This document shows, piece by piece, positions 45,599 through 55,080 of a DNA stretch of 64,000 bases. Each line of letters starts with the position of its first letter. Position 1 is the stretch's first letter. The notes beneath the pieces are model-generated. The model saw nothing but the letters and a program-made list of their open reading frames with translations, was not told the origin of the DNA and did not search any database. Where the stretch lies: the NCBI GenBank assembly GCA_016875165.1, contig VGSF01000015.1, positions 1-64,000 on the forward strand, given 5' to 3'. The DNA is from Deltaproteobacteria bacterium. GTDB lineage: Bacteria > Desulfobacterota > SM23-61. The position numbers and the translations under genes were made by a program.

Positions 45599-45790
45599 TG
45601 AGCCTCTTGCAAAAGTATTTTTTGTGGTTCGACAAGCTTGTCCTGAGCGAACCGTTCACCCTTCGAGAACCTCAGGGCGAACGGTGAGTCGAAGGGCTCA
45701 CCACGAACGAAAAAACTAAATAATTTCAACCTAAGCCCGTTCACCCTGAGCCTGTCGAAGGGTAAATTACGGACTTTTGCAAGAAGCTCA
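45599..45790. repeat. 192-bp MITE-like element with TGAGC.TCTTGCAAAAGT ends
   Basis: The left end TGAGCCTCTTGCAAAAGT (45599-45616) is mirrored at 45773-45790 with one mismatch. The inside has REP-like palindromes (gttcgacaagcttgtcctgagcgaac; cttcgag ... ctcgaag type). It occupies the left part of the 45503-46152 gap, next to the duplicated promoter units. Confidence 0.7.
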
Positions 45791-45857
45791 TGTTAGACGA
45801 TCCATAGAAATTATAAAAAAACTTGGCTCTATCTCTCAAAATATCGATAATAATAAT

Positions 45858-45917
45858 GTCTCATCTACCCATGGTAGAAGTAGCTCGGGGGCTGCCCTTC
45901 GGGGCGGTCGCTGTTTA
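45858..45917 (+). ncRNA. Candidate small RNA, unit A of a tandem pair
   Basis: Promoter TTGGCT (45823-45828), 17 bp, GATAAT (45846-45851), then after seven bases tctcat followed at once by hairpin ctacc/ggtag (45865-45877). A second hairpin is ctgccc-ttcg-gggcgg (45892-45907). The same series of boxes and hairpins, spaced identically up to the first hairpin, recurs 121 bp downstream (unit B). The end is uncertain because the T-run after it is weak. An open reading frame also runs through, so a small protein cannot be excluded. Confidence 0.35.
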
Positions 45918-45978
45918 TTGGAGCCTTTCTTCAAATCTTTCTCTTGACTTTTCTTTTGAATTCTTCGATATTATAAAT

Positions 45979-46033
45979 ATCTCATCCACCATGAGTGGAA
46001 GGAGTTGGGCTGACGATCTTCGTTGGCCTTTTT
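45979..46033 (+). ncRNA. Candidate small RNA, unit B of a tandem pair
   Basis: Promoter TTGACT (45944-45949), 17 bp, GATATT (45967-45972), seven bases, tctcat, then hairpin ccac/gtgg (45986-45998). A terminator-like hairpin ggctgacga/tcgttggcc (46008-46028) is followed by five T. Compared with unit A, one pair of hairpin 1 changes from T-A to C-G, and hairpin 2 is kept with different sequence, which suggests selection on structure. No known RNA family is recognised. Confidence 0.4.
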
Positions 46034-46152
46034 CATTTTATCCGTCTTGCATACTTATTTTCCTTTCTGTTAACTTTATCGCGTTTCAAACAAACGCCGA
46101 GGGAATAGTAATATGTCCCCCAAATTCCCGCCAATTCCCCCCTTAGTGGTTT

Positions 46153-46641
46153 TCATCGCATGTGTTGCGGGCATAAAAAATTTATACGAATACCATTTTT
46201 TTTCAGAGCATCTTTGTGCTCCCACCAATCGGTATCAACGGCATTTAAAACAACAGGATGATTCCGGCTTGCAGATGCCACTGCAACATATTTTCGGTCA
46301 GATCTATCAAAGGTATCTAAATCCCGATCGTCAGGGAATTCCAAGAATTCATCCGGTGCAGATAACTCCGCTGTCAATTTAACGCGTTCACAAACCTCAA
46401 TTACACCCTGGTTTTCCCATACCCATTTCAGGAATGCGTCACCAGCACCAGGTTGTCCAGCCATACGGAGGCAATTCAGATATTCCGATAAAATCAACAT
46501 TCCATCGTCGATAACAATCATGCCTCCTTGATATATTTTCGAAAGAATATTCACGCAGGATAGAACACAATCATAATTTGCTTGGTTAGAATGCCCATTA
46601 GCAACGATGGGCACATTAACATCGACGACAAAGGCATTCAA
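46153..46641 (-). CDS. PIN-like nuclease domain protein paired with the ATPase
   Basis: About 162 residues from TTG 46641, which overlaps the ATPase stop (TTGA). FVVDVNVPIVANG near the start, DDGMLILSEYLNCL, DRSDRKYVAVASAS and NAVDTDWWEH give a spaced series of acidic residues like a PIN-type RNase. A longer frame (to 46797) overlaps the ATPase and is not family-like. The likely role is an RNase effector or toxin kept in check by the ATPase (inferred). Confidence 0.65.
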   Translation of the reverse strand: MNAFVVDVNVPIVANGHSNQANYDCVLSCVNILSKIYQGGMIVIDDGMLILSEYLNCLRMAGQPGAGDAFLKWVWENQGVIEVCERVKLTAELSAPDEFLEFPDDRDLDTFDRSDRKYVAVASASRNHPVVLNAVDTDWWEHKDALKKNGIRINFLCPQHMR

Positions 46642-48008
46642 CCCTCCCCCTCCTTTTTCCGTTCCATCGCCGCTTTGGTTATTGCTGCCATTTCTCCAAA
46701 CTGATCTCCAAAAAATTCCCTTGGCCAATTTTGAATATTCCCGAAAAGATCTACGCTTAAGGGAGTTAATTTCGATTCTCCTTTTTCTGTTTCGCAAAAA
46801 TATAATGCGGTTTCATCGGGTGATATCGTTTTCTCAGCTATTCGGCGTTGAAGCCGCTTTAGAAGGTGCTCGCTATGGCTTTCAAAGATAATCTGGATTT
46901 TCCGGGTTTTCACCGCATCAATAAATACATCTGTCAAGCCCGCTTGGACAGCTGGGTGCAGGTGGATTTCTGGTTGTTCAAGAATAATAATAGATCCCGC
47001 AGGAGCGTAATAACAAAGCACTATTGCAGGTAGGATTTGAGAAACGCCAAATCCAACGTCTGTAATTAATACTTCTGCAGAATTGGGATTCCGGCGGACT
47101 TTGACATGATAAATATTTCCTCCTTCTTTTGCCAGCGGTTCCACGTGAAAGGATTCAATAAGATTCAGTGCTTGTAGCCATGCCGCGACTCGCTGTTCCA
47201 ATGATACTTTCTTTCTTTTCTTTCCCGGCGATATTAATAAGCCTCGCTCACGTGCCGCAAGAATCGCTTCCACAACTCGTTCGCCACGTTGGCCCATGTC
47301 AACGGGTTCAGCACCAGACCAAGAATATTGACGTTTTGGATAATCACGAAGTGGCCCAAGGTATTTGGTTTCCGTAAAAAGCCTTTCAAACTCAAGTTGA
47401 AGGTCTGATAGAAACCCAGCATTTTGATATCGAGCGTTAACTTCGTTCGGGAAACCGTAACATTTCACGGGAGCAGGAAGGTCCCAAACTCGTCCACGTG
47501 TCCGTACGAATTTAAAGCCATCAGATGGTGTCGTTTCCAATTCATAGTTCTCTTTGCCGGTAGATTTGCGTTTCATACTGAAGTCATACCCTGCAAATGA
47601 ATAATCAAGGTGATTCACGATAAGGCGTTTTTTTTCATTTTCCTCAATTTCCACGCTAAAGCCGATATCATTTCCAGTGAATAATTCGGCATTCTTATCA
47701 TCTGGCCTTTTTACTTTAAGGGGTTGATTAAGTTTCCATCTAATAGAGCATTTAAGTTTTCCAGATGTTTCGTGCGAGAAAATAAACTCCCTAAAACTTC
47801 CAAGGTTAGCAGGGCTTTTTTCATTGCCGAAATCCAGGACCTGCAAACGATCAGTTGATTCAACCGTTTGCTTAATCATTAGAAGCAACTGAAGAATGCT
47901 GGTCTTTCCAGAGCTATTCGTGCCGAACAAGCCGGTGATTGGAGCAAGCCGCATTTTCTCGACCTGTTTCCATGACTTAAAATTGGTAAAACTTAATTCA
48001 GTAATCAT
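46638..48008 (-). CDS. AAA/ABC-type ATPase (DUF3696-like)
   Basis: 456 residues. Walker A FGTNSSGKTSILQLLL lies near residue 30. Walker B with ABC-type context is IIILEQPEIHLHPAVQAG near 355, followed by IIFESHSEHLLKRLQRR. The C-terminal NIQNWPREFFGDQFGEM is the DUF3696 end. OLD/RecF-like ATPases of this class are common sensors in defence modules. It is translationally coupled to the PIN-like gene downstream. Confidence 0.8.
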   Translation of the reverse strand: MITELSFTNFKSWKQVEKMRLAPITGLFGTNSSGKTSILQLLLMIKQTVESTDRLQVLDFGNEKSPANLGSFREFIFSHETSGKLKCSIRWKLNQPLKVKRPDDKNAELFTGNDIGFSVEIEENEKKRLIVNHLDYSFAGYDFSMKRKSTGKENYELETTPSDGFKFVRTRGRVWDLPAPVKCYGFPNEVNARYQNAGFLSDLQLEFERLFTETKYLGPLRDYPKRQYSWSGAEPVDMGQRGERVVEAILAARERGLLISPGKKRKKVSLEQRVAAWLQALNLIESFHVEPLAKEGGNIYHVKVRRNPNSAEVLITDVGFGVSQILPAIVLCYYAPAGSIIILEQPEIHLHPAVQAGLTDVFIDAVKTRKIQIIFESHSEHLLKRLQRRIAEKTISPDETALYFCETEKGESKLTPLSVDLFGNIQNWPREFFGDQFGEMAAITKAAMERKKEGEG

Positions 48009-48022
48009 AAAGATTGCTCCTT

Positions 48023-48145
48023 TCAGATCTCGCCTTCAATGATGCGGACGACTTCGAGTGAGCGTAGAGATTCGAGGCTGTCCCGGATCGGGTGGGGATC
48101 ATCGGAAATCCGCTCATAGATTTCTTCAATACATATGTAGATGTT
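48023..48145 (-). pseudogene. C-terminal remnant of an unidentified gene
   Basis: About 40 in-frame codons end at a TGA (48025-48023) with coding-like sequence (EEIYERISDDPHPIRDSLES, LRSLEVVRIIEG) but no start, cut off upstream by a stop and a change of frame. It lies 15 bp upstream of the ATPase start. I do not recognise the family. Confidence 0.4.
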
Positions 48146-48172
48146 TGGTTCCTTTTAATTCATCCGGTCCGT

Positions 48173-48469
48173 TTAACTCTTAAAAGATTGCTTGTTCAGC
48201 CATTCCAATTCTTTCCCCAGCATTTGCGGGTCCTTGCAAACTTGAAAATCCCACCTTCCCATTTGTCCCCAGTTATTCACCGCGCTGACCCACCGCTTTG
48301 CCGACTGATATTTGGCCCGGTCAGCACATTGAGAGACCTTAGCTCGATCTCCTCCGCATCTGGCCCAAACGACAAAAGATTCTGGAGTTTTTCCGACTTT
48401 ATGAGTCTTTTTTCGCCAAGCATTCCGGCCTTCTATTTCAAGAAGCTTTAAAAATAGTAATGTGTCCAT
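48173..48469 (-). pseudogene. C-terminal fragment of a restriction helicase (Res-like)
   Basis: 98 codons. The tail AKRWVSAVNNWGQMGRWDF, then VCKDPQMLGKELEWL, resembles the C-terminal end of large restriction/helicase subunits and the WVPAVNNHGGFGQW tail of the remnant at 15728. Helicase and nuclease parts are absent. The 48026-48494 gap holds only this and the short remnant before the ATPase. Confidence 0.5.
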
Positions 48470-48494
48470 GGAATTATGTACTTCTTAAGATTTT

Positions 48495-51400
48495 TTATGC
48501 CGCCGCCCACTCCTGCGATAACACCTCCGCCTGCTCCAGCACGGTCAGCGTCGCCTTCTCCTGTTTGTCGGGTGGGTATCCATGCTTTCTCAGGATCCGC
48601 TTCACGAGCACACGCAGCTGCGCCCGAACATTCTCCCGCACGGTCCAGTCGATGGTGACGTTCGCCCGAACCGTTTTCACCAGCTCCCGCGCAATGGTGC
48701 GGAGCGTATCGTCCCCCAATACCTTCACGGCGCTGTCGTTCGTTTCCAGAGCGTCATAAAATGCCAACTCGTCCTCGTTAAGACCGAGGGATTCCCCTCT
48801 CGCATTGGCCTGCCTCATGTCCTTCGCAAGTTGGATCAGCTCCTCGATCACCTGCGCCGCCTCAATCGCCCGGTTTTGATACCGCCGGATGGCCTCCTCC
48901 AGCATTTCGGCGAAGGATCGGGCCTGGACGACGTTCTTTCGCCGCCGGACTTGAATCTCCCCTGAAAGCAATTTCCGCAATAGTTCGACCGCGAGGTTCC
49001 GCTGCGGCATCCCCCGCACTTCGGCGAGGAATTCCTCCGAGAGAATCGAAAGGTCCGGTTTTTTTAATCCCGCTGTGGCAAAAATGTCAACGACCCCTTC
49101 CGAGGCAACGGCTCGGGATACAATCTGCCGGACAGCCAAATCAAGCTCCTCTTCCGTTTTCATCTCTCCCGGCGCCCGCTTCGCGAGGGCAGCTCGCACA
49201 GCCTGGAAGAACGCCACGTCGTCACGGATGCGTAAAGCCTCGGCATGGGGTACCGCCAGCGCAAAGGCCCGAGAAAGATCCTGCACGGTACTGAGGAACC
49301 TTTCTTTTCCATCTTTTTGAGAAAGTACATGCTCCTGCGCCGGCGGCAGGACCCCCAGGCGCTGGGCAGGGGTTCCGGACACCCAGAGCGACCAATTAAA
49401 TTCGTGCATGATCCCGCAGCAGACCTCGTATTTCTCCAGCAGGAGCTCGACCGCCTCCATCTGGTCGATCGCGGTCTTCCCTGTCCCGCCGCTTTCGGTG
49501 TATGTGGCAAGCGCCTGCTTGAGTTCATGCGCAAGCCCCAAGTAATCCACCACTAATCCCCCGGGCTTGTCTTGGAAGACCCGGTTGACCCTGGCGATCG
49601 CCTGCATCAGCCCATGGCCGCGCATGGGTTTGTCCACGTACATGGTATGAAGGCTCGGCGCGTCGAAGCCGGTCAGCCACATGTCGCGAACCAGCACGAC
49701 CTTGAACGGGTCCTTCGGATCCCGGAACCGGTTCGCCAGCCCTTCCCGGCGGGGCTTGTTACGGACGTGCTGCTGCCAGTCCAGGGGGTCTGAGGCCGAT
49801 CCGGTCATTACAACCTTGATCGCGCCCTGTTCGTCCTCGGCATGGTGCCAGCCTGGACGGAGGCGAATAATTTCCCGATACAGTTCCACACAGATGCGGC
49901 GGCTCATGCAAACCACCATTGCCTTGCCGTCCATCGCCTCCAGCCGCTGCTCGAAATGATCGACAATGTCTTTGGAAATCAGTTTCAGCCGTTTTTCCGA
50001 CCCGACGATGGCCTCAAGCTGTGCCCATTTGGTCTTGAGTTTCTCCTTGCGCTCAATCTCCTCGCCCTCGGTCACCTCCTCAAACTCGGGGTCAATCTTT
50101 GGCTTCTCGGACTCATCGAGTTCCAGCTTTGCCAGCCGTCCCTCATAATAAATGGGCACGGTTGCCTTGTCTTCAACAGCCCTCTGGATGTCGTATATGC
50201 TAATGTAATCGCCGAACACCGCCCGGGTGTTGGCGTCGGCTTTCTCAATGGGGGTCCCCGTAAAGCCGACAAAAGAAGCATTTGGCAGCGCATCACGCAT
50301 GTGCCGGGCAAAGCCGTCGATAAAGTCATACTGGCTGCGGTGGGCTTCATCGGCGATCACCACGATGTTGCGCCTTTCCGAGAGCGCGGGGTAGTGGTCG
50401 CCTTTCTCCTCCGGCAGAAACTTCTGGATCGTCGTGAAGACCACGCCCCCGGCTTCCACCCGCAGCTTCTCACGCAGATCCGCCCGGCTTTCGACCTGGA
50501 TCGGCGGCTGGCGCAAGAGGTCTTTAGATTTTGAAAAGGTTCCAAAGAGCTGGTCGTCGAGGTCGTTTCGGTCGGTTAGCACAACGATCGTTGGATTTTC
50601 CATCTTTGGCTCGCGTATCACCCGCCCGGCATAAAAAGCCATAGTCAGGCTCTTCCCTGACCCTTGAGTATGCCAGACCACGCCGATCCGCCGGTCCCCG
50701 GGTTTACCGCCGGGCTTTCCACCTGCCTCGTAACGCCCTTCCCTTTCGGCCGCCCCCTCACGCAGCGCGGCGCGCAAGGTTTCTTCAAGGGCAACATTGA
50801 CTGCATGAAACTGGTGATAACCGGCCATTTTCTTGACGAGCCGCCCGTCGCCCGAGTCCTCGAACACGATGAAGTAATCAGCATATCGAGGAAGCGGCGT
50901 TTCTCGAATACCCCTTCGATCGTTACTTGCAGCTCAGGGATAAAGGGATCAGCCAGCGATTCGCCCGAAATGGTCCTCCAGGGTTTAAACCATTCCTTCC
51001 CGGCGCCAAGCGCCCCGATGCGCGATTCCAGCCCGTCTGACACGACAACCGCGGCATTGTAGGTGAAGAGCGACGGGATCTCATGCTGGTATGTCTGGAG
51101 TTGCTGGAAAGCTGTCCAAATCGTTGCGTTCTCGTCGGCGGCGTTCTTGAGTTCCAGCACGGCGAGAGGGATGCCGTTGACGAACAACACCACGTCCGGC
51201 CGGCGGTTGTGTTTGTTTTCGGCGACGGTAAACTGATTGACTGCCAACCAGTCATTGTTATCGGGGTTATCGAAATTGCTCACTTGGGCCTGGGCACCCG
51301 CGATGGATCCATCTTTGCGGCGGTATTCCACCGTCACCCCATCAACCAGCCAGCGATGCACAGCGCGGTTGCGGGCATCCAGGTTCGCCCCATCTGGCCG

Positions 51401-51625
51401 CGTGAGCCTTCGGAACGCATCGTCGAGGGCCTCCGGAGGAAGCTCTGTATTCAAGCGCACAAGCGCCTGGCGGAGGCGATCCTCCAGGATAACTTGCGAG
51501 TAATCAGCACGCTCGGCCCCAAATTCACCCGGGGCAATTTCCAACCCGTTTTTGATCGCATAACCAAGCCCTTCCAGCCAGGCAAGGGCTGCATCTTCTA
51601 CAACAGATTCGGTAAATGCGCTCAT
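48495..51625 (-). pseudogene. hsdR: Type I restriction endonuclease subunit R, frameshifted
   Basis: The 5' part (from ATG 51625, about 248 HsdR-like residues, with the nuclease region [19 protein letters not shown]) and the 3' part (open 48495-50867, with [28 protein letters not shown] and [15 protein letters not shown] helicase motifs) lie in different frames. The break is near 50876-50881, where the family reads [14 protein letters not shown]. Adding one base there restores the frame. Otherwise the gene is complete (about 1,040 residues). Either the nuclease is dead, or this is a sequencing error, or frameshifting rescues it. Confidence 0.85.
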
Positions 51626-52197
51626 CGCTTCCCCCGGTGATCCTGGCGCATACGGTAAAGTCTTTCCGTAAACCCGCCTTCATTAAGAAACCCCTGCTCA
51701 AGCCTTTGCAACTGTCGCCCCAAAAGAAAACTGGCCTGATTGACCAAGCAGATCAGCGTGTTCGCAGCAACCTCAGCGGGTGCAGAAAGAATTTGGTAGG
51801 GGTCTGACCTGTCTGACGAGTCCGACTTGTCCGACCTGTCCGACTGGTACTTTCTTCTAACCGCAAGGGCCTCCGGAGAGTCCTTGGCCCAGAGGCGCAG
51901 ACGCCGCTGGCGCAGGAAGTCTTCATAGTCGAGCAGCAGTTCCTCCAGGCTTGCCCTCGCAACCCCGGTCAGTTTGAGTTCGCTCTTCTTCGAGGTCGCG
52001 GAAGCCATACTGCCCTCGGCGATATTCTGTACCCCGCTCCGCGCGGCCTGAATCATCTGATCACGTGTACGCGAGTTTTTCTCAATGAAGCGGTCACAGA
52101 AGATAACCGTGGCATCATATACCTGCTGAGCGTACTGAAAGCTGCGCAGCTTGCGATAGCCGCCGTAAGATGGAATCAGCTTGTCTTCGCGGGTCAT
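51622..52197 (-). CDS. Four-helix-bundle (S23-like) protein in the hsd operon
   Basis: 191 residues from ATG 52197, overlapping the hsdS stop (TGATG). [20 protein letters not shown] and [20 protein letters not shown] are the pattern of the four-helix-bundle family related to S23/rRNA intervening-sequence proteins, which often sits between hsdS and hsdR. Near its C-terminal third the sequence [14 protein letters not shown] comes from a roughly 46-bp minisatellite (51801-51846), possibly length-variable. Function in restriction is unknown. Confidence 0.75.
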
Positions 52198-53504
52198 CAG
52201 GGACTCCTTTTCCTGCCTGCTCTTTGAGACAGAGCGCACTCACCCACCCGGTGATCACCGAACCGTTCGGCATCCTTCACCCGCAACTCACCGGAGATGA
52301 GCTTGGGCAGCAGCGCGTCGCGGATGGCGGCGAGGGTTCGCGACTGCACTTCGCGACGCCATGTGCTCTCGACGATCGGCTGGATGACGGCGTCCATTGC
52401 ACGCAGGAGTTCCTGCGAAGGAACTGACAGCCTTGCATCGAACAGGTGATGTCGCTGGATATGTCCCATCGTGGTCGCCTTACCCGCCGCGATGTGCCGG
52501 AAGTCATCGAGGTGCTGATGAATCCCGAAGTAGCAAAGCCACCGTGGATACTTGGCAGATGTCACCTTGAACAGATGCTGGTTTAGGGCAGCCGGTCCTC
52601 CAGCCCATAGCATGCACTCCAACGAGCCGGACCACGAGAACAGAATGTCTCCATCTTGAACGACGTAGTCGGGTTCAAGATCGGCACTCGCGCGGTCAGC
52701 TCCGCTGGTGTTGCCTGCTCGCAGTTGGGCGATCTTGATGACCGGCAGCGATCGCCCGTCCGTGGGCGGATACTTCTGCAACGCGAGGCCATTGAGAAAG
52801 AGCGCGATCTCGGCGAGGCTTCGGACCTCCCACCCCCTCGGAATCTCCCCCAACTCCGAGTCCTCGAAAGAGTCGGGAAAGAGGTCGGCAATAGGTTTGG
52901 GCAGGCCGGGGTCGCGCCCTTCGGTCTTGGCGCGGACGGGATCGAAGTCCACAAACCAAGACTTGAAGATTGCCCGCGCTATCGTCTCCAGCGTTTCATT
53001 CATCCTCCGGTTCAACTCAATCTTGTCGTCCAGCGTGCCGAGGATGTGGGCAATGGCGCGCTGTTGAGATAATGGTGGAATAGCATGTTCGATCCTTGAT
53101 ACAAATTCCCATCGCGCACGTGGCATTTTTGTGCCTTCTGAGCCCCGAGTTGCCTCATTAACAAAATCGAGTGACGCCATCCAATAAAAGAGAAAACCTT
53201 GGTCAATCCCATTTTTGGCTCGCACAACCCATATGTCGGTTGAACACACCCCATCGAATGGTGCTCTTATCACTTTACGAAAATATGGACGCAATTTGCC
53301 AAAGAGAATGTCCCCACGACGGAATTTAGACTTAATGCTTGTGACATCCTCCGCTACTCCGTGTCCTACCAAAGATAATAACCCTTCACCGATGTGCTCC
53401 AGCCCGACGTAGGGAATTTTCGCAGATTCCGCTGGATAAACCGTGTCTCGAATTAGAGTTGCACAATCACCAAATGCCCGTATCTGCCACTCATCGCCCG
53501 CCAT
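52197..53504 (-). CDS. hsdS: Type I restriction enzyme specificity subunit S
   Basis: 435 residues. Two target-recognition domains lie in the N-terminal half and in the middle. The conserved helix [20 protein letters not shown] near residue 145 links them, and [20 protein letters not shown] near 375 is the second conserved region. HsdS gives sequence specificity to the methylase and nuclease. It starts 14 bp inside the hsdM 3' end, so it is coupled. Confidence 0.92.
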
Positions 53505-55080
53505 ACCCTAACTCCTTCAGATTCGTTTCTATGGCTTTATCCAGTTTGTGGCCTTCAGTCATCTGCTGTCGAAGCTGTCCCGTGAGCCTTTTCATCTTCT
53601 CCTCGAAGGGCTCGCCGTCGTCCTCCTGCGCCTCCGCACCCACGTACCGTCCAGGGGTGAGAACGTGGCCGTGCTTGCGGATTTCCTCCAGTTTTGCCGC
53701 CTTGCAAAAGCCTGGCACATCCTTGTACTTCCCCGCTCCCTTCTCTCCCCGCCATGCGTGGTAGGTGCCAGCGATGCGGGCGATATCATCATTTGTTAAT
53801 TCACGGTGGGTACGGTCCACCATCCGCCCGAGTTTACGGGTGTCGATGAAAAGCACTTCTCCCCGGCGGTTGCGAAAGCGGTAGTTCTTCTTGTCCCGGG
53901 CGAGGAACCAGAGGCAGGCCGGTATCTGCGTCGAATAGAAAAGTTGACCCGGCAGCGCGACCATGCAGTCCACCAGATCGGCCTCGATGAGGTTTCTGCG
54001 AATCTCACCCTCCCCGGATTGGTTGGAGGACATCGAGCCGTTCGCGAGAACGAAGCCGGCCAGCGCGGTCGGCGCGAGATGGTGCACCATATGTTGTACC
54101 CAGGCAAAGTTGGCATTTCCCGCGGGTGGGATGCCGTATTTCCAGCGTTTGTCCTCCCGGAGAAGCTCACCCCGCCAATCGCTCACATTGAATGGCGGAT
54201 TTGCAAGGATGTAATCGGCCTTCAGATCCGGATGCCGGTCGTTGTGGAAGCTGTCGCCGTGGGCGATCTGGCCCTCGATGCCGCGAATGGCAAGGTTCAT
54301 CTTGGCAAGCCGCCATGTGGTGTAGTTCGACTCCTGACCGTAAATGGCAATGTCCCCCCCCGCTTTGCCGCCATTGCTATTCCCCTTGGCATGTGCGTGA
54401 ATGAATTCGATGGACTGTACGAACATCCCCGAGGAGCCGCAGCAGGGGTCGTACACCCGCCCTTTGAAGGGTTCGAGCATCTCGACCAGCAGTTTGACCA
54501 CGCAACGCGGGGTGTAAAACTCTCCGCCTTTCTTGCCTTCGGCGCTGGCAAACTGGGAGAGAAAATACTCATAAACCCTCCCCAGAATGTCCTTGGAGCG
54601 GCTCTCCTTGTCACCAAGAAGAATGTTTGTAACGAGGTCGATGAGCTGCCCGAGGCGCTGCTTATCGAGGGCCGGACGGGCGTAATCCTTGGGTAGCACG
54701 CCCTTAAGCGAGGGGTTATCGCGTTCGATGCCGGTCATCGCGTCATCTACAAGCTGACCGATGGTTGCTTGTTTGGCCTGGGCCTTGAGGTGGGACCAGC
54801 GGGCCTCAGGAGGCACCCAAAAGATGTTCTTTGCCCGATACTCGTCCGGATCCTCGGGATCGGCGCCCTGCAACTTCTCGGCCACGAGTTTGGCGTGCTG
54901 CTCCTCGAAGGCGTCGGAAATGTATTTGAGGAAGATCAGCCCGAGAACGACATGCTTGTACTCGGCCGCATCCATATTGTTACGCAGAGCATCTGCCGTC
55001 TGCCAGAGCTTGGCCTCAAAGCCAAGGTTGGCGGCGGTGGAGTTCACGGATCCTTGACTGGTTTTCTTCATTTTCGGCAT
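53491..55080 (-). CDS. hsdM: Type I restriction-modification methyltransferase subunit M
   Basis: 529 residues. SAM motif [15 protein letters not shown] near residue 212 and catalytic NPPF ([15 protein letters not shown] near 280) define an N6-adenine methyltransferase. The N-terminal helical domain ([20 protein letters not shown]) is typical. ATG 55080 is used; a second ATG a few codons in is possible. It leads the M-S-4HB-R operon, and a 35-codon frame lies directly upstream. Confidence 0.95.

Follow-up and report, generated by a model that had tools for sequence, protein, structure and literature searches.

A conserved small RNA accompanies the RlfA–RlfB genes of phage P1 and diverse bacteria and occurs as two orphan copies beside a deltaproteobacterial defence island

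Structured RNAs adjoining DUF3800 genes have been described before (Weinberg et al. 2017, cited in PMC10910872), and Rfam holds such RNAs as DUF3800-I to -XI (e.g. RF02969, DUF3800-I, and RF02968, DUF3800-IX). The RNA described here resembles them in having a DUF3800 gene, rlfA, as its companion, but it has no match to their models. By the Rfam models it is set apart from them, though parts of the family may already have been noticed by Weinberg et al. 2017. A search of 198 genomes of the window's phylum with RF02969 returned 0 matches; since it gave no match anywhere, it is uninformative. The protein partners of our RNA are the known PDC-M04 pair, RlfA–RlfB in P1 and RapA–RapB in P7, whose P1 and P7 records show no annotated RNA. 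Among toxin–antitoxin systems, type III (ToxIN) likewise pairs a structured RNA with an RNase-type protein, and by analogy direct binding would apply here as well. ToxI is a tandem-repeat RNA lying upstream in the toxin operon, whereas the present RNA is single and non-repeat, is encoded convergently on the opposite strand from its own promoter, and goes with two proteins of other folds. Type I systems (par, txpA/RatA) likewise have an RNA that converges on the 3′ end of a toxin gene. There, however, the toxins are small membrane peptides, whereas RlfA (~237 aa) and RlfB (~165 aa) are soluble, and our RNA overlaps its neighbour by a few nt and is conserved in sequence and structure across phyla. 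In the literature we found no paper on rlfAB with an RNA, on the RlfA–RlfB–RNA trio or its occurrence in P1, or on PDC-M04.

The window analysed here, 64,000 nucleotides of contig VGSF01000015.1, carries two related units on its plus strand. An earlier, sequence-only reading had proposed a pair of duplicated small RNAs with promoters TTGGCT-17-GATAAT and TTGACT-17-GATATT, and both units were indeed present where it had placed them. The promoter of unit A occupies 45823–45851 (-35 TTGGCT, 45823–45828; 17-nt spacer; -10 GATAAT, 45846–45851). Downstream of the -10 box come TCTCAT and then the hairpins of sRNA copy A (45858–45919): hairpin 1, UCUACC/GGUAGA (45864–45869/45873–45878), a linker, and a terminator-type hairpin (45890–45897/45902–45909, outer pairs 45886–45888/45911–45913). 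In unit B the promoter (45944–45972; TTGACT, 45944–45949; 17-nt spacer; GATATT, 45967–45972) precedes sRNA copy B (45979–46033), with closing pairs CUC/GAG (45981–45983/46002–46004), hairpin 1, UCCAC/GUGGA (45985–45989/45995–45999), and a terminator stem (46007–46029) that is strong and is followed by a T run, as had been described. Each sRNA is ~55–60 nt long, with one hairpin at the 5′ end and another of terminator type. The two units align without gaps at an offset of 121 bp, with 36 of 57 positions identical from the -35 box to the end of hairpin 1, and each folds better than its dinucleotide shuffles (z from -2.1 to -3.1, the latter for copy B). The paired T-A to C-G change noted earlier in hairpin 1 holds up, and across the family it is seen as true covariation (pair 9–20: UA 38, UG 10, CG 8). 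The TTGACT/GATATT boxes of unit B also stand upstream of the sRNA in loci L077 and L082. Unit B is a well-preserved family member; unit A belongs to a subfamily with L002, L003 and L044 and has itself lost the closing pairs. Because these 5′ pairs (CUC/GAG elsewhere) are disrupted in A (UAG), this copy may be decaying.

Other interpretations of the region were discarded. The plus-strand frame 45823–46146 is not a protein, because the length of the element varies by single bases among homologues (59, 60, 61, 62, 63... nt), and the ATG of unit A is missing in L002. A genome-wide repeat was rejected as well: matches to TCTCATCNACC in the same genome were mostly coding and unrelated, and A and B alone fitted. 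The region does hold a repeat of a different kind, a ~190-bp element (45600–45789) whose termini are 17-bp inverted repeats (GAGCCTCTTGCAAAAGT / ACTTTTGCAAGAAGCTC) and which has a hairpin inside; 33 bp separate its end from the unit A -35 box. With at least 40 copies of 95–99% identity in its own genome, it has the features of a recently active MITE-like repeat. An 11-of-12 promoter match on the minus strand (TTGAGA-18-TATAAT, 45839–45810) overlaps the unit A promoter and points leftwards into this element.

A DNA search of 98 relatives with unit A gave three clear homologues, L002, L003 and L004, with 88%, 88% and 74% identity, respectively; a search of plasmid DNA gave none. A covariance model, R1, built from these three and A, with B left out, retrieved unit B at 23.9 bits (E 1.3e-4 in 64 kb), more than chance would give, and the earlier reading of two related, duplicated small RNAs with promoters of their own is supported; the 87.8 bits of unit A arise by construction, as A is inside the model. 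R1 also retrieved further members in the phylum, several of them adjoining one particular gene at its 3′ end, with a DUF3800 gene preceding it. Many of its weak matches were ordinary terminators and were discarded by eye.

In L003 the gene in question is intact: it encodes 162 aa on the strand opposite to the element, which lies directly behind its stop codon. L002 and the window retain only its last codons. The relic in the window (~13 codons ending in RERFEERLQ and the stop; 45915–45957, minus strand) stands tail-to-tail with sRNA A, and the 88% DNA identity with L002 and L003 extends through it, over the same codons that in L003 end an intact RlfB. PADLOC assigned the partner genes to PDC-M04A (DUF3800) and PDC-M04B, a system listed as a phage-defence candidate. 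PDC-M04B had no match in Pfam or NCBIfam, and tblastn against phages showed the two proteins to be RlfA–RlfB in P1 and RapA–RapB in P7.

A protein-only search of 84,980 genomes yielded 241 relatives of PDC-M04B, of which the best 80 were kept. In all 77 of these with readable DNA beyond the gene, the RNA was convergent with rlfB and near its stop codon, with the RNA 3′ end within a few nt of that codon in most loci. In 72 of the 80 loci rlfA lay ahead of rlfB, the remaining 8 including some on cut contigs; in most loci the two genes overlapped by ~4 bp, an arrangement that looks like that of a translationally coupled operon. When 1.15 Mb were scanned with the consensus pattern as a control, 72 of the 73 matches fell exactly behind rlfB, and shuffled sequence gave 0. 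In 395 genomes of the window's phylum the RNA stood at 11 of 11 PDC-M04B genes (7 found by model, 4 divergent ones recognised by eye), and an intact RlfA–RlfB pair lacking the RNA was never seen. The hosts of the 80 loci were, by record title, Desulfobacterota, Gamma- and Betaproteobacteria, Nitrospirota, Chlorobiota, Planctomycetota, Chloroflexota, Acidobacteriota, Cyanobacteria, Spirochaetes, Firmicutes, Actinobacteria, Elusimicrobia and others, and the RNA family ranges from phage P1 to more than 12 bacterial phyla. The sRNA is a constant companion of RlfA–RlfB modules, with a conserved promoter and structure and a fixed convergent placement behind rlfB, and very probably their third component.

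The consensus of the family is AGCUCAUCYRCCAUGUGURGAAGGAGUAACG, with minor changes, followed by the terminator hairpin. We examined its structure in an alignment of 56 RNAs gathered via the protein, without any RNA model. Closing pairs GCUC/GAGU, hairpin 1 and the terminator hairpin account for a structure in which 98.0% of cells are paired (n=56), whereas slid structures pair at most 55%; RNAalifold, unaided, returned the identical structure. Both sides have changed in 11 of the 19 pairs, giving 84 double-change cells where shuffles give 18.5; the covariation sought by the sequence-only reading is genuine. The conserved unpaired bases (A6, the CAUG loop and A23-G24) are nearly invariant across phyla, and the family has no variable, guide-like stretch; the extraction pattern enforces part of the invariance of CUCA and AGnAG, but not the compensatory changes. 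A role of AAGGAG as a Shine–Dalgarno mimic, pairing with the 3′ end of 16S rRNA, was dismissed: the signal was slightly above shuffles, and the GAG is used in the closing stem. The family promoter has TTGA at -35 to -32 and prominent A-11 and T-7, spaced from the RNA start as in a textbook promoter; of 72 examined, 36 scored at least 9 of 12, against 1.8 when shuffled. The -10 box ends at -7 from the RNA start, a spacing common to the family and units A and B. A second model, R2, made from the 56 RNAs beside RlfB genes of other genomes with the window excluded, found unit B at 36.5 bits (E 9.3e-8) and unit A at 21.4 bits (E 9e-4), and otherwise nothing convincing in the window. Rfam, searched with the window and more than 30 related loci at gathering and relaxed thresholds (E up to 1–10), gave no match, in line with the earlier view that no known RNA family fits. 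This is a large, strongly covarying RNA family absent from Rfam. Divergent subfamilies (L071, L072, L073, L184, L241, L242, L244), which R1 and R2 score weakly or miss, have a longer hairpin 1 and other linkers; the linker GAGCGAUCGAACCCG is common to P1 and genome G144, and AAGGAAAUCGAAAA occurs in viral contigs.

The sRNA is found in phages P1, P7 and Bbif-1. In P1 (NC_005856.1) it is flanked by rlfB and pmgF and occupies ~52,907–52,977 of the minus strand, with the end at UACUCAUC as its predicted start; the P1 and P7 records have no RNA component annotated there. The P1 rlfA/rlfB genes are downstream of a C1 operator and were non-essential by CRISPRi (PMC10695390), which is uninformative on toxicity. 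Viral contigs retrieved with the RlfA or RlfB protein gave 61 loci, 46 of which had a model match directly behind rlfB. The remaining 15 comprise 9 truncated by the end of the contig, 2 P1 prophages with a break within rlfB, and 4 loci whose divergent RNAs, in the same layout, were recognised by eye. In E. coli the RNA was present in 121 of 5,426 complete genomes, almost always on plasmids.

Predicted structures suggest what the two proteins may be. RlfA (~237 aa, pLDDT 90) matches RNase H2 in Foldseek (E 1e-5, TM 0.4–0.54), and D10, E11, D133 and D180 are invariant in 45 sequences; from fold and active-site residues we infer an RNase-H2-like nuclease. An RNase H fold for RlfA/DUF3800 was noted earlier (PMC3710099, PMC10910872). 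RlfB (~165 aa, pLDDT 94) gave weak matches, HigB1, RelE and colicin D among others (best E 0.08–0.5), and is possibly a RelE/HigB/colicin-D-like RNase.

The genome of the window has no PDC-M04B at E<=1e-8: unit B lacks an adjoining rlfB, and unit A retains the relic alone. It is one of ~12 of the 395 genomes that carry the RNA without the proteins, with relics also in L171 and L178; the turnover of modules seems to leave the RNA behind. Neighbours of the orphan RNAs include SIR2, Mrr-like, AlbA_2, AAA with or without DUF4276, methylase and HEC-03 genes. Four orphans (L191 in G003:C298, L179 in G285:C108, L170 in G135 and L172 in G243) stand tail-to-tail with genes for OLD-like AAA ATPases, two of which come with DUF4276 (HEC-01-type); this proximity may be either chance within defence islands or a second partner. 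Tandem sRNA copies were also seen in the viral L236 and in G266 (L077/L047, G266:C10 100464–101043), where an rlfB tail relic lies between the copies, as in the window. The defence island of the window (46153–55080, minus strand) holds the HEC-03A/B genes, a 23S-IVP-like four-helix protein (51622–52239) and type I restriction genes, namely HsdR, split at ~50645–50867, HsdS and HsdM.

What the orphan RNAs do is a matter of weighing several explanations. The sequence-only reading had linked them to the adjacent ATPase/PIN-like pair, the candidate defence system HEC-03, made up of a PIN-like protein (PADLOC HEC-03A, E 3.6e-38; 46153–46797, minus strand, true start probably near 46632–46646) and an AAA_15/DUF3696 ATPase (HEC-03B, E 3e-162; 46638–48008, minus strand). 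Unit B and HEC-03A converge, with 120 bp between the unit and the HEC-03A stop codon, and other orphan copies also adjoin defence-type genes, as would be expected if the sRNAs regulated, or were RNA antitoxins of, the HEC-03 pair or the local island. This link did not hold: none of the 6 other HEC-03 loci in the 395 phylum genomes carries the RNA (one had a sub-threshold 13-bit match), the neighbours of orphan copies differ among genomes, and an rlfB relic lies behind unit A, the constant partner being RlfA–RlfB. We regard such a role as highly improbable; the HEC-03 pair is a neighbour, outside the sRNA system. Less remote, but still doubtful, is a cis-antisense (type I-like) RNA, which would be fully complementary to the rlfAB 3′ UTR and would control the stability or termination of that mRNA. 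Such an RNA would be convergent and would end a few nt from the rlfB stop codon, as it does in most loci, where no U-run terminator belonging to the rlfAB mRNA itself is obvious. An antisense RNA, however, needs neither a conserved loop and linker nor compensatory changes that keep the hairpins, and stand-alone copies would be left unexplained. Pairing of the RNA with the rlfA/rlfB start sites at its own locus gave no signal over that at other loci, and the conserved unpaired bases suggest binding rather than simple antisense.

Both the conservation of unpaired bases with compensating stems across phyla, and the occurrence of the RNA without the proteins but never of an intact pair without the RNA, argue for a trans-acting, protein-binding RNA. 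Both patterns are predicted by an antitoxin and by a cofactor alike. As a cofactor or guide, the RNA would be an obligatory part of an RlfA–RlfB ribonucleoprotein, giving it activity or specificity and not inhibiting it. The RNase H2-like fold predicted for RlfA would suit this role, the proteins are never seen without the RNA, and DUF3800 proteins have already been tied to structured RNAs and to a Cas12 branch (PMC10910872). Still, there is no variable guide-like stretch, the unpaired parts are nearly invariant across phyla, and the RNA persists alone in many genomes; we therefore hold a cofactor to be possible, and a stronger candidate than antisense, but on balance unlikely. Two features lead us to favour an antitoxin, namely the conserved promoter that belongs to the RNA itself and its survival on its own in defence islands, and the sRNA is most likely a direct, antitoxin-like partner of RlfA–RlfB. 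The RNA would be made constitutively from its own sigma-70 promoter, would fold into a closed 5′ hairpin, a conserved loop and linker and a terminator hairpin, and would be bound by RlfA and/or RlfB, so that the bound RNA would hold the nuclease pair in check. In the window, island turnover would have removed the proteins and left the RNAs, tolerated or kept as an antidote. Overall, the best explanation of A and B, with a probability of roughly 0.6, is that they are orphan copies from a system in which RlfA–RlfB is restrained by a directly bound antitoxin RNA, the proteins having been lost here.

The rlfA and rlfB genes have stood in the P1 genome for two decades, and in P1 and P7 the pair is annotated merely as 'possibly associated with lytic replication', as PDC-M04 is merely a defence candidate. 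The ever-present conserved RNA indicates that the module is an RNA–protein system and supplies its missing component. Together, RlfA–RlfB and the sRNA would, by a judgement a little better than even, constitute a new RNA-controlled nuclease module, either a new type of RNA toxin–antitoxin system or an anti-phage ribonucleoprotein, and the module can be tested in P1, a standard laboratory phage. Beyond Rfam, the finding adds a multi-phylum RNA family and explains its orphan copies in defence islands.
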